A stretch of DNA of 42,901 bases from Sulfurovum sp. (GTDB lineage Bacteria; Campylobacterota; Campylobacteria; Campylobacterales; Sulfurovaceae), in NCBI GenBank assembly GCA_027082955.1, contig JALWTA010000037.1:1-42901 (forward strand), given 5' to 3'. Made by a program: the position numbers and the translations under genes. Shown here in pieces: positions 32,292-37,976 of this stretch; position 1 is the first letter of the stretch, and each line of letters opens with the position of its first letter. The notes beneath the pieces were generated by a model, which made no database searches, was not told where the DNA came from, and saw only the letters and a list, made by a program, of their open reading frames with translations.

Positions 32292-33235
32292 CAACGACCA
32301 TCATGCAACTCAAAACCGAACTCTCCAAGGCGGTCATCGGACAGGAAGCGATGATCGAAGGGCTGCTCATCGGGCTGCTGTGCGAAGGGCATATTCTGGT
32401 AGAAGGGGTGCCCGGCCTGGCAAAGACTACCACTATCAATGCACTCTCCCGTGCCATTGGGCTGGACTTCAAACGTATCCAGTTCACCCCCGACCTGCTC
32501 CCCTCCGACATTATCGGTGCACAGATATACAACCCCAAAGAGCACACCTTCAGCATCAAAAAAGGACCTCTTTTTACCAATCTGCTTTTGGCAGATGAGA
32601 TCAACCGTGCGCCGGCAAAGGTACAGTCGGCGCTGTTGGAGGTAATGCAGGAACAGCAGGTGACCATTGGAGATGAGACCTTCCCTCTGGAGCATCCGTT
32701 TCTGGTCATGGCAACCCAGAACCCCATTGAGCAGGAGGGGGTCTACGCCCTGCCCGAAGCACAGCTTGACCGTTTCATGATGAAACTGGTCGTCACCCAC
32801 AACGATGAGGCACAGGAGCTTGAGATCATGCGCAAAGGAGCGACCAAAAGCTTTGGCGAAGTCAAGCAGGTATTCGACAAAGAGGCGCTCTTTGCACTGC
32901 AAAAGCAGCTTGAAACGATCCACATAGACCCCGAACTCGAACAGTACATCGTAAGCCTTGTCTCCGCCACACGCAACCCGGAGAAGTTTGGTCTGGAGGG
33001 TGTTGCTGCTGACATCATGTACGGTGTCAGCCCCCGTGCCTCCATCGACCTCTACAAAGCTTCCCGTGCCAAAGCTTTCCTGCGGGGCAACGACTATGTC
33101 AGTCCTGCTGATATCGGCTATGTCATCCATGATGTACTCCGCCACCGCATCGTACTCAGCTATGAAGCAAGGGCCAAAGGCATTCAGAGTGATGAGATCA
33201 TTACCAAGATCGTTGAAGCGGTGCCGGTACCGTAG
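32288..33235 (+). CDS. MoxR family AAA+ ATPase
   Basis: A 315-residue AAA+ ATPase. Walker A is GVPGLAKT at 40-47, Walker B LLADEINRAP at 100-109, and sensor 1 is in the MATQNPIEQEGVYALPEAQLDRF stretch near 140-162, the MoxR hallmark. MoxR enzymes act as chaperones that activate VWA-domain partners, which here are the two Bat proteins encoded just upstream. Its TAG stop lies inside the first copy of a heptamer repeat array. Confidence 0.95.
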   Translation: MTTTIMQLKTELSKAVIGQEAMIEGLLIGLLCEGHILVEGVPGLAKTTTINALSRAIGLDFKRIQFTPDLLPSDIIGAQIYNPKEHTFSIKKGPLFTNLLLADEINRAPAKVQSALLEVMQEQQVTIGDETFPLEHPFLVMATQNPIEQEGVYALPEAQLDRFMMKLVVTHNDEAQELEIMRKGATKSFGEVKQVFDKEALFALQKQLETIHIDPELEQYIVSLVSATRNPEKFGLEGVAADIMYGVSPRASIDLYKASRAKAFLRGNDYVSPADIGYVIHDVLRHRIVLSYEARAKGIQSDEIITKIVEAVPVP

Positions 33236-33287
33236 GAAGTAGGAAGTAGGAAGTAGGAAGTAGGAAGTAGGAAGTAGGAAGTAGGAA
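33232..33287 (+). repeat. Tandem array of eight GTAGGAA heptamers
   Basis: Exactly eight uninterrupted copies of GTAGGAA (56 bases). The array begins at the last codon of the MoxR gene, and the first copy supplies its TAG stop. Such heptamers expand and contract by slippage. It opens the 305-base gap before the DUF58 gene. Confidence 0.97.
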
Positions 33288-33319: not shown

Positions 33320-33476
33320 GTCAATAAAAATATTGCGCTGTTATTGCTTTCTCGTAGGGTGCGTAATCACGCACCATTGAGACGCATGACAACCAAACAT
33401 GCTTATATTACAAACGGTTTGAAGGTGCGTGCCTACGCACCCTACATATTCTCTCTTGTCAATCAAAGCATTGCGC
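33320..33476 (+). repeat. Imperfect direct repeats flanking the inner inverted repeat
   Basis: Two copies of a 19-base sequence beginning GTCAAT and ending ATTGCGC, at 33320-33338 and 33458-33476, agreeing at 16 of 19 positions. They stand on either side of the inverted-repeat pair at 33354-33445. They could mark the ends of an inserted element or an older duplication. Confidence 0.6.
33354..33445. repeat. Paired REP-like palindromes in inverted orientation
   Basis: Arms at 33354-33375 and 33424-33445 are inverted copies of each other, matching at 20 of 22 positions, 48 bases apart. Each arm also folds alone: GGTGCGT and ACGCACC form a seven-base stem around four bases. This double palindrome is like REP/BIME elements. 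At 33493-33519 a pyrimidine-rich stretch (TCCTAACTCCTACC and similar) is a loose inverted counterpart of the heptamer array. No coding sequence is seen in 33236-33540. Confidence 0.8.
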
Positions 33477-33540: not shown

Positions 33541-34368
33541 ATGAGCACCGATTTCCGAGCGCTCCAGCTCAAAGCCCGTCATCAGGTCTATACACTGCTC
33601 AGTGGGCACAACCTTTCTCGTCTGCATGGGGAAGGGTACGATTTTGCGGAGCTTCGGGAGTATCAGATGGGGGATGATATCCGCAAGATCAACTGGACCA
33701 TTACGGCAAAACTGGGAAAACCCCACATCAAAGAGCTGCATGCAAGCAGAGAGCTCTCCGTGGTGGTGGCAGCGATGATGGATGGCGGGGTCTATTTTGG
33801 GGAAGAGAATGCCAAACAGCAAACCATCACCGAAACTGCTATGCTGCTTGGGTATGCCGCACAACACGGCGGAGATCTCTTTACCGGTATTGCCTATCTG
33901 CCAGACCAGACAGTCACGACACCGCCGACAAAACAGCTCTACCACATTGAACAGTTTACACAGAAGCTCTATGAAGCTTCGCTTTTGCATACAGCGCTTG
34001 AAACCAACACCGCACTGCGCAACCTTTTTGGCAGGCTCTACAAACCTTCTTTGCTTTTTATCATTGGTGATTTTCTCGAAGAAGCAGATCTCTCACTGTT
34101 GGCACAGCGACATGAAGTCATTGCTGTCATTATACGGCACAGAGAAGAGGACTTTCCCAGAAAACTTGGAGAGGTGCTGCTGCATAACCCCAAAAACGCA
34201 AAAGCGCACAAAACCTTTTTCGCCAAAAAGAGCATACAGCGCTACACAGCACACCGAGAGGCACACGATGCGAGACTTGCCGAGCACTTTGCCCGCTACG
34301 ATATCCGATCGGTCAAGATCTATACCGATGAATCACCGCTAAATAAGCTTCTACCGCTGTTTAGGTGA
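33541..34368 (+). CDS. DUF58 domain protein
   Basis: A 275-residue DUF58 protein, the usual partner of MoxR. The family signature is in the GEGYDFAELREYQMGDDIRKINW stretch (about residues 24-46), followed by a degenerate VWA-like fold. No signal peptide or membrane helix is seen. In most genomes it follows moxR directly; here the repeat block intervenes, and GGAG at 33528-33531 (in CGGAGC) is the likely ribosome site. It ends without a gap against the tail of the AsmA-like gene on the other strand. Confidence 0.9.
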   Translation: MSTDFRALQLKARHQVYTLLSGHNLSRLHGEGYDFAELREYQMGDDIRKINWTITAKLGKPHIKELHASRELSVVVAAMMDGGVYFGEENAKQQTITETAMLLGYAAQHGGDLFTGIAYLPDQTVTTPPTKQLYHIEQFTQKLYEASLLHTALETNTALRNLFGRLYKPSLLFIIGDFLEEADLSLLAQRHEVIAVIIRHREEDFPRKLGEVLLHNPKNAKAHKTFFAKKSIQRYTAHREAHDARLAEHFARYDIRSVKIYTDESPLNKLLPLFR

Positions 34369-34521
34369 TCAGAGTCCGAAGCTTTTTAACAGTGCACCCG
34401 CCTCTTTGCCCCACTTCTTTTCAACTTTCTCTTCAAGTTTTTTGCCGTACTGCGCTTTGATGGTACTGCCGGCATCAAGAACAAACCTTGGCTTGTCTGT
34501 GCTGCCAGAGATCTTCCCCTA
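34369..34521 (-). pseudogene. Detached C-terminal tail of the AsmA-like gene after an in-frame amber codon
   Basis: On the minus strand the TAG at 34521-34519 that ends the AsmA-like frame is followed, in the same frame, by 49 sense codons up to a TGA at 34371-34369. The translated tail begins GKISGSTDKPRFVLDAGSTI and runs into a Lys/Glu-rich helix (KKLEEKVEKKWGKE), then ends SFGL. A tail with a KP-x-F-x-LD-x-G motif and a charged helix is how such AsmA-like proteins of this phylum commonly end. The final TGA abuts the DUF58 stop with no gap. A single substitution would restore an 830-residue protein. Confidence 0.75.
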
Positions 34522-36861
34522 GAGCACCTTCCCTTCATAGAAGAACTTAACCCTGCCGCTTTGTGCTTTTGTACGTGTATTGATGTACCCCTGTGTAATG
34601 GTAATGCCACTGCGTGTCCCTTTTGCCTGAAGGGTATAGCGCACCTGATCGCCGTTGATATCGGCATGGTAATGGGTTTTTCGGAAAATAATACGCGAGG
34701 GGTCTTTCCCCAGTACTGCGGTGAGTACCTCGGTAAGCGGGCTGGGCTTGATTTGGAAATTTTTCAACATCAAATCGGCGTTGCCTCTTCTTGATACCGT
34801 GTCATACACCACCTTGCCGTCTGCCGTACCAAGAAAACGCGGAGGGTAGCCAAGCATACGCAAGAGTCTCTCCAAAGGCACATTGCCAAGATTCATAGTA
34901 AACCGGTTATGCTTGAGTACAAAAGTGATTTTGCCGCCAAGAGACGATGTCTCTCCGGTTGCACTCAGAACATCTTGCCGCTGCATCGCTTTCCCCTGAA
35001 GCTGCATTGCCCCGTAGAGTTTGCGTCCAATCAGCGGTTCAAGCGCTAAAAGAGAAGGCACCTTCAAGTCATAGTCCAGCGAAAGGTTTTGCTGTTTGAG
35101 TGCTGCGCGGATGTGCTGCAGACGCAGTGTACCCAGGGAACTTTGCAAAAGCCCTTCCGCCGTTGCGTGCCCCTGTTTCATGTTGGCATCAAACTGAAGC
35201 AGACCAATCTGCATTTTCAGGGCTTTACCCATAAGCTTTTGCATCGCTCTTGGCTGTGTAGAAAGGTGCTTCCCTGCAAGATGCAATGATCCGTCAAGGG
35301 TTGTGAGGTTGGCAATATCGGCTTTGAGATTGAGTCTGCCCTGAAGGGCTTGAGGGTATCCTGCCAGAGCAAGCAGCCTTTGTGCGTAGAGTCCGGCTGC
35401 ATTCACATTAGCTTTGATACCGGCATAGTGAAATGCCACATGCTCTCCAAGCCCTTTGAGCGTGCCCTCTACCAAGATCTGTTTATCATAACCGAGTTTC
35501 CCCTCTGCCTCAAGGGCTTGATGCGACTTCACACCCAAGAGTGCCATATCTTTCATTCGCAATGCGTAATGGGTTGAGAGCTTCTGGGAGGCTGTCTCGT
35601 AACGCAGCTTTTTAAGAGTAAGGTCTGCGATGGTAGAGCGTAATGAAGCAGAGGAAAACAGCACCCCTTTTTGAAGTGTTCCTTCCGAATGGAGACTGAG
35701 CCGGTTGTGCAGCGGCAATTTTCGTTTCCATAAACGCGCTACGGTTTTAGCATGAATGCTGCCGTTGGTCACATCAATCAGATATCTCCCTGACTGTAGT
35801 GACATATCATTCAGATCGACAGTGCCATCGAGGTTCCCCTCAAGCAATGCCGGCTGCCGGGTCAATCTCAACAGTTTCGCTGCCGAGAGTGACTGCATCT
35901 TCAGGTGTACCTCTTTGCCCGCATCGAAACTGAGCGTGCCGCCAAGGGAGTGGCTTATACCGTGGATTTGAAATGCTTTGTCTTTGGCGGCAATGGTTCC
36001 TGTGGCACTGAATGCACCGGCGAGTTTGTTCCCGGTAACAATACGCATCTCTTTGGCTGCCATCGTATATTTTGAATGCAGTGCGTTGGTCTGTGTATTA
36101 TACTGCCCCTCTGTCAGTGTTAGATGCAGCAGGTTGCTCTTTGCATGCGCATCAAACAGCACAAAAGCACCGTCAAGCTTTGCATCGGCACGCAGAGAAA
36201 CACGGCTTTTGGGAGGGAGTGTGTAGCCATAATGCTTTTTGATGAGCGCCCTTTGCAAATAGGCATCTTTCACCCGCAGTTGCGCGGTACCCTTCGCACC
36301 TTCCGTTCCAATGTGCGGCATATGGATGGTCAGATCTGCTTTTCCCTTGATGATCGGCGGCTCTTTGGCAAGTACCAACAGCTCCGAAATGGAAAGTCCC
36401 TTGACGATCGCTTCAATATCTTTAGGCTCCCCTTTTTCAACGTAGACCTTATAGGCAAGCGGGGCATGGAGCGCATGCCCTTTGCCGTTTAGACGGATCA
36501 TATCGGTAACGCCCCTGAACTTTCCGCCAATGTGAATGTTTGAGAGTGTTACCCCTTGATAGGTGAATGCTTTTGCCCTAAGAGCATACGCACCCGAAAA
36601 GGAGCGTTTCAACACATTGTAGTTTGAAACGGTACGAAAATGCAGCTGCCCATTGAGCCGTGCAGCCAGTGTGACCCTGCCTGGACGCAGCTTGAACTGC
36701 TCTATGGCAACAGGCATACCTGTTGCTTTTTCAAGACGTGACTGTATATAAGGGGCAAGAAAGGCGTTGCCGGCATCGCTGAAAATGTAAAGTGCCATCC
36801 CCAGCAGAAGCAGCAAAATAACCAGCAAAACAGAGAGAAAACGAATAGCTATACGGTTCAT
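34519..36861 (-). CDS. AsmA-like envelope protein, probably truncated
   Basis: A 780-residue protein with an N-terminal membrane helix (about 8-28) and a very long periplasmic beta-repeat region, the layout of AsmA/YhdP/TamB-like bridge proteins that help carry phospholipid between membranes. GMPVAIEQFKLRPGRVTLAAR near the start is the typical first repeat; the C-terminal third has ALEPLIGRKLYGAMQLQGKA and FLGTADGKVVYD. The frame stops at an amber codon beyond which 49 codons remain open (see the adjoining entry). Absence of this tail may or may not abolish function. A TAAAAT at 36876-36871 (minus) would give a three-base leader. Confidence 0.8.
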   Translation of the reverse strand: MNRIAIRFLSVLLVILLLLLGMALYIFSDAGNAFLAPYIQSRLEKATGMPVAIEQFKLRPGRVTLAARLNGQLHFRTVSNYNVLKRSFSGAYALRAKAFTYQGVTLSNIHIGGKFRGVTDMIRLNGKGHALHAPLAYKVYVEKGEPKDIEAIVKGLSISELLVLAKEPPIIKGKADLTIHMPHIGTEGAKGTAQLRVKDAYLQRALIKKHYGYTLPPKSRVSLRADAKLDGAFVLFDAHAKSNLLHLTLTEGQYNTQTNALHSKYTMAAKEMRIVTGNKLAGAFSATGTIAAKDKAFQIHGISHSLGGTLSFDAGKEVHLKMQSLSAAKLLRLTRQPALLEGNLDGTVDLNDMSLQSGRYLIDVTNGSIHAKTVARLWKRKLPLHNRLSLHSEGTLQKGVLFSSASLRSTIADLTLKKLRYETASQKLSTHYALRMKDMALLGVKSHQALEAEGKLGYDKQILVEGTLKGLGEHVAFHYAGIKANVNAAGLYAQRLLALAGYPQALQGRLNLKADIANLTTLDGSLHLAGKHLSTQPRAMQKLMGKALKMQIGLLQFDANMKQGHATAEGLLQSSLGTLRLQHIRAALKQQNLSLDYDLKVPSLLALEPLIGRKLYGAMQLQGKAMQRQDVLSATGETSSLGGKITFVLKHNRFTMNLGNVPLERLLRMLGYPPRFLGTADGKVVYDTVSRRGNADLMLKNFQIKPSPLTEVLTAVLGKDPSRIIFRKTHYHADINGDQVRYTLQAKGTRSGITITQGYINTRTKAQSGRVKFFYEGKVL

Positions 36862-36887: not shown

Positions 36888-37976
36888 TTACACAAAGAGC
36901 AAAAAGGCAAAGACAATAAAGAGGATCACGTGCAGGAATCCCTCCAGCACATTGGTCTCTCCGTCATTGAAGTTGACCATGCTTACCAGCAGCGTCAAGG
37001 AGATGAGCATGGTCTGTACCGGTGTGAGAGAAAGGTTCAGTTCCAGCCCCATAAAGTAGGCCACCACGATCACGGCAGGGATGGTTAGCAGTACCGTTGC
37101 CAGGGAAGCACCCAGTGCAATATTGATCACTGTCTGCATACGGTTGTCTACCGCTGCACGTACCGCAGTGATCAGCTCCGGTGCTGCGGAAATCACCGCC
37201 ACACCCACAGCACCGATGGCAAGCGGCAGCCCAAATGTCTCAAGTGTATTGCCCATAAAGACAGAGAGCAGCTCAGAGAGTACACCAATCACCACGATAG
37301 AGACAACCAAATTGAAAGCATGGTACCATGCATTGATCTCATGGTGCGGCGCTTCACATCTCTCCCCTTCCGGGCAGCTCTCACTCTGGTTGTACTCAAA
37401 GAAGTAGCGATGCGACTTCAGCTGTACACGCGTGAAGATGGTATAGAGCAGCAAAAAGACCACCACATTGAAGAGCATGAACTGCTGATGGTGGGCAGGA
37501 TCGATAAACTCCGGCAACACCATCGCAATACCGATGGCAACCAGCAGCATCGAGAGGTAAGAGTTGGTCGAGTCGACATTGTAGGGCTGTTCGCCGTATT
37601 TCAACCCGCCAATGATCGCCGCAAGCCCAAGCAGCCCGTTGATGTCAAGCATGATCGCCGAGTAGATGGTATCTCTTGCCAGTACAGGGTTGTTTGCATG
37701 CATCATCATAATGACAATAATGACGATCTCCACAATGACCGCAGACATCGTCAGGATGAGTGTCCCATAGGGTTCTCCAAACTTCTCCGCAAGCATCTCC
37801 GCATGGTGTGAGACTGACATAGCCGCATAGATGATCACAGCAAACAGCACGCCAAGCCCGACAAGGTTGCCCAGAGTACTCTCTGTCAGCAGGTGCTCAA
37901 AATGCCCTATGAGCACAAATGCGGCAATAGATGCAAAAAGACTGTACTCTTTGAGAAACTGTTTGAGGATCGCCAT
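36888..37976 (-). CDS. chaA: Calcium/proton antiporter, ChaA-like (CaCA family)
   Basis: A 362-residue exchanger with about eleven hydrophobic segments. The two alpha repeats are recognisable: GEPYGTLILTMSAVIVEIVII at about residues 67-87 and GAVGVAVISAAPELITAVRAA at about 245-265. Between the halves is a hydrophilic loop with Cys, Glu and His (SCPEGERCEAPHHE), as in E. coli ChaA. It exports calcium, sodium or potassium in exchange for protons. Its start follows one base after the stop of the HTH protein gene, so the two are co-expressed. Confidence 0.88.
   Translation of the reverse strand: MAILKQFLKEYSLFASIAAFVLIGHFEHLLTESTLGNLVGLGVLFAVIIYAAMSVSHHAEMLAEKFGEPYGTLILTMSAVIVEIVIIVIMMMHANNPVLARDTIYSAIMLDINGLLGLAAIIGGLKYGEQPYNVDSTNSYLSMLLVAIGIAMVLPEFIDPAHHQQFMLFNVVVFLLLYTIFTRVQLKSHRYFFEYNQSESCPEGERCEAPHHEINAWYHAFNLVVSIVVIGVLSELLSVFMGNTLETFGLPLAIGAVGVAVISAAPELITAVRAAVDNRMQTVINIALGASLATVLLTIPAVIVVAYFMGLELNLSLTPVQTMLISLTLLVSMVNFNDGETNVLEGFLHVILFIVFAFLLFV

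Follow-up and report, generated by a model that had tools for sequence, protein, structure and literature searches.

A premature amber codon in a conserved 830-codon Sulfurovum gene: probably a recent nonsense change

A gene of 830 codons in a draft genome of Sulfurovum sp. has probably undergone a recent single-base nonsense change, TAC to TAG, with a product that ends 50 residues early. We infer that the TAG is the base present in the living cell. The gene lies in the window, i.e., the whole stretch of 42,901 nucleotides that was analysed (contig C37). The source assembly is a 2.10 Mb draft of 48 contigs with an estimated completeness of 95.6%. The closest relative found is the MAG Sulfurovum sp. 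JALTYW010000115.1, hereafter the sister, with the corresponding gene at locus L032 (same gene as G074/L076). The features of the region are:

34519 to 36861, minus strand: truncated open reading frame of 780 amino acids, AsmA-like by weak similarity; the sister locus (L032/L076) is intact and has 92% amino acid identity
34519 to 34521, minus strand: premature stop TAG (amber) at codon 781, which is TAC (Tyr) in the sister
34372 to 34518, minus strand: conserved C-terminal tail of 49 codons, GKISGSTDKPRFVLDAG followed by a Lys/Glu-rich, helix-like end; homologous in 27/27 orthologues
34369 to 34371, minus strand: ancestral stop TGA, common to the window and the sister
33541 to 34368, plus strand: convergent DUF58 gene, intact in both genomes; its stop adjoins the ancestral TGA
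36888 to 37976, minus strand: cation exchanger gene (Pfam Na_Ca_ex), upstream on the same strand, intact in both genomes

The truncated open reading frame has a hydrophobic anchor at the N-terminus and a long body after it. Past the TAG (34521-34519, minus strand), the frame continues as GKISGSTDKPRFVLDAGSTIKAQYGKKLEEKVEKKWGKEAGALLKSFGL for 49 sense codons and ends at the TGA at 34371-34369. A sequence-only reading had described an AsmA-like frame that ends at TAG and is followed by 49 sense codons, and had the TGA of the tail exactly abutting the DUF58 stop. Sequence and translation agree with the former, the coordinates with the latter. With zero bases between them, the two convergent stops together read as the palindrome TGATCA (34366-34371), in the sister as well. 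The full-length frame encodes 830 amino acids, of which the TAG cuts off 50, the last 6% of the protein.

The sister protein has the same length and is 92% identical over 830 residues. The two genes align across 831 codons with no indels and share the TGA stop; the tails are 96% identical. Codon 781 of the sister is TAC, encoding tyrosine. Of 78 genomes of the genus searched, 30 had a match with an E value of at most 1e-60, and among these 30 an internal stop is present only in the window's copy. The site alignment comprised 27 other orthologues of the same genus that cover codon 781; L078 runs off its contig inside the tail. Codon 781 is a sense codon in all 27 (Tyr in ten, Arg in seven, Thr in five; Lys, Ser, Asn, Ile and His once each), and all 27 have a homologous tail. 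Gly-782, Gly-786 and Pro-791 are invariant in the alignment, Ile-784 and Asp-796 invariant or nearly so. The viral contigs and plasmids searched provided no useful relative. An alignment with homologues had been proposed as a check on the sequence-only reading: the relatives read a sense codon at this site and carry the tail, and none was found to end here with an unrelated sequence behind. Since the sister has TAC and all 27 orthologues have a sense codon, the window gene as assembled carries a tyrosine-to-amber nonsense change relative to the sister.

The length of the open frame is unremarkable by itself. At least 49 sense codons follow 12% of the stops in the window, counted in any frame, and a composition-based estimate for an open run of 49 codons is 6.6%. 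The distinctive feature is the codon usage of the tail, with a score that reaches the 63rd percentile among true in-frame stretches and is matched by only 0.3% of those out of frame. The tail is not a product of chance because it is homologous to the tails of 27 orthologues, and a chance open frame was ruled out on this ground. A separate downstream gene was also rejected: 0 of the 49 codons are ATG, GTG or TTG, and the tail is collinear with the full-length orthologues.

The divergence from the sister bears on the age of the stop. The body of the gene has a dS of 0.177 and a dN/dS of 0.24. The tail has four synonymous and two nonsynonymous differences (dN/dS 0.13). At most one of these two nonsynonymous changes is placed on the window branch; with some outgroup sets, neither is. 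The neutral expectation for the tail on this branch since the split is about 8-10 amino acid changes. The body evolved without clear acceleration on the window branch, with 12 versus 12, 22 versus 18 or 32 versus 27 changes by outgroup set. With at most one amino acid change in the tail against the 8-10 expected (P from 4e-5 to 0.003), the stop is recent, or an error, or the tail is kept under selection by readthrough. If the tail was neutral after the stop arose, this comparison places its origin within about the final 30-45% of the window branch. A long-standing pseudogene was dismissed, as neither body nor tail has decayed.

The designation AsmA-like needs a qualification. Matches to AsmA-family profiles were marginal and occurred in 2-4 of 23 homologues (best E 2.6e-4), and the window protein itself had no match to these profiles. 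Weak matches of some orthologues involved AsmA (PF05170, NF008091), YhdP and GspN models. Membership of the truncated protein in the AsmA superfamily is plausible. Solved structures included no match to the window protein, and neither the family profile nor the Pfam AsmA model revealed a paralogue in the genome. Two sequences were modelled, both poorly (mean pLDDT 31 and 45). An N-terminal helix was predicted at moderate confidence, and the remainder of the models is unreliable. In these low-confidence models the TAG falls inside a beta-strand, and the tail goes on with another strand and two helices.

A nonsense change of this kind would have turned the tyrosine codon TAC into TAG by one base, with loss of the conserved protein end, and would be young relative to the split from the sister. 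Judged from the models, the 780-residue product would lack what are probably the remainder of one beta-strand, a further strand and a charged C-terminal helix. Without these elements, the product is probably impaired and may be expected to work poorly or not at all. Trace amounts of full-length protein could arise by ordinary leaky termination.

The use of TAG in the genome was examined in a sample of about 383 kb with 269 predicted genes. TAG is the stop codon of 70 of these genes (26%). RF1 is present and intact in the genome, and a search of the genome for pylS found none. Wholesale amber recoding was discarded with the intact RF1 and the wide use of TAG as a stop, and pyrrolysine with the missing pylS; the argument against wholesale recoding made from the sequence alone gains from all three results. 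The tail is the sole high-scoring, non-overlapping in-frame extension in the 383 kb census. Among the other uncovered extensions, those of L102 and L107 start a new lipoprotein-like gene in-frame, that of L101 is ambiguous and some score poorly. The anticodon CUA was present in none of the 33 tRNAs recovered, an incomplete set. By anticodon, tRNA-Tyr, -Trp, -Thr, -Cys and -Ile are absent from it. Many of the recovered tRNA genes sit near contig ends, and the missing genes were probably lost in assembly gaps. A CUA tRNA could have been missed in the same way.

Between the moxR and DUF58 genes lies an inverted-repeat element (33354-33445) with the arms GTAGGGTGCGTAATCACGCACC and GGTGCGTGCCTACGCACCCTAC at a spacing of 48 nt. 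A genome search gave 43 matches, many of which cover one arm only or are the same place counted on both strands, and several matches were obtained in the sister genome. The gap between moxR and DUF58 measures about 237 bp here versus about 75 bp in the sister, and because of the shorter gap in the sister the element looks like an insertion. By form alone, it looks REPIN/MITE-like. The genome has two Y1-transposase matches above the Pfam cut-off. At the moxR end, the heptamer GTAGGAA occurs eight times in perfect tandem (33232-33287), with the TAG stop of moxR within the first unit; the array is possibly of variable length.

The main rival to a recent nonsense change is a consensus error from sequencing, assembly or a mixture of strains, in which case the cell would carry a sense codon and produce the 830-residue protein. 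In a single assembly of a species, such an error looks identical to a real mutation. An error would fit a TAG that stands in one assembly (48 contigs, 95.6% complete), a change of a single base, and a tail and body without decay. The surroundings speak against it: eight neighbour genes compared with the sister are free of frame-breaking stops and gaps, one of them being split over two sister contigs, and in 383 kb no further gene was seen to be broken ahead of a conserved tail. The assembly therefore shows no sign of being rich in errors. In consensus sequence with good coverage, substitution errors are generally uncommon, which also counts against this reading, and we regard it as somewhat unlikely. 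An older, fixed and tolerated truncation, with a functional shorter protein and a drifting tail, would suit a gene with lower conservation than most neighbouring genes (92% amino acid identity to the sister versus 95-99.5% in six of eight; two others have 78-82%). The tail sequence has been kept, however, the 8-10 neutral amino acid changes are not seen, and the five residues named above are invariant or nearly so across the orthologues, which makes such a truncation extremely unlikely.

A tail that is still translated by readthrough would likewise stay unchanged. Functional readthrough or amber suppression requires that a suppressor tRNA or leaky termination provides useful full-length protein. 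The nearly unchanged tail, the many residues tolerated at codon 781 across orthologues and the unrecovered tRNA-Tyr gene in an incomplete tRNA set are consistent with this. The base after the TAG is G; in a reporter library in E. coli, stops followed by G were read through more often (PMC11126739). The bases following codon 781 are, however, identical in the sense allele of the sister; the stop context is thus inherited and not an adaptation. Folding of the RNA 3' of the TAG is no more stable than that of shuffled sequences (z 0.14), giving no sign of a stimulatory structure there. The stop is not conserved, with no other orthologue having an internal stop at the site or elsewhere. TAG terminates about a quarter of the sampled genes, none of which has a further coding-like non-overlapping tail other than a following gene, and RF1, pylS and the CUA anticodon gave the results described above. 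Functional readthrough is accordingly very unlikely. Slighter still is the chance that the TAG is tolerated through a suppressor tRNA that escaped the search, such as a tRNA-Tyr variant encoded in an assembly gap, so that short and full-length protein are made side by side. Among the three options first named for this site (nonsense mutation, error and readthrough), the nonsense change is the best supported, and readthrough lacks positive support.

For annotation, the appropriate label is a premature-stop allele, or a probable error, of a conserved protein of 830 amino acids, and not a protein of 780 amino acids. Amber recoding should not be read into this genome. Provided that the TAG is real, the gene is a natural truncation allele and could show whether the C-terminal tail of a little-described envelope protein matters.

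Programmed readthrough and amber recoding, as in pyrrolysine genes, share with this case an in-frame TAG and a conserved coding tail; here, in contrast, the TAG is unconserved in orthologues, pylS is missing and TAG is common as a stop. The bridge proteins of the AsmA superfamily (AsmA, YhdP, TamB and YdbH) resemble the truncated protein in the N-terminal hydrophobic anchor and the long body, and weak matches of some orthologues add to the likeness. They differ in that the window protein has no AsmA model match, no solved-structure match and no reliable fold model. In E. coli TamB, a member of this superfamily, growth is impaired by a deletion in the C-terminal domain, the part that contacts the TamA barrel (PMC12800296). 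An ordinary nonsense mutation or strain-level pseudogene has the same one-base stop, intact frame, conserved tail and intact copy in the sister, whereas here only the last 6% is lost and no other decay has yet occurred. The event is probably an ordinary kind of nonsense change.
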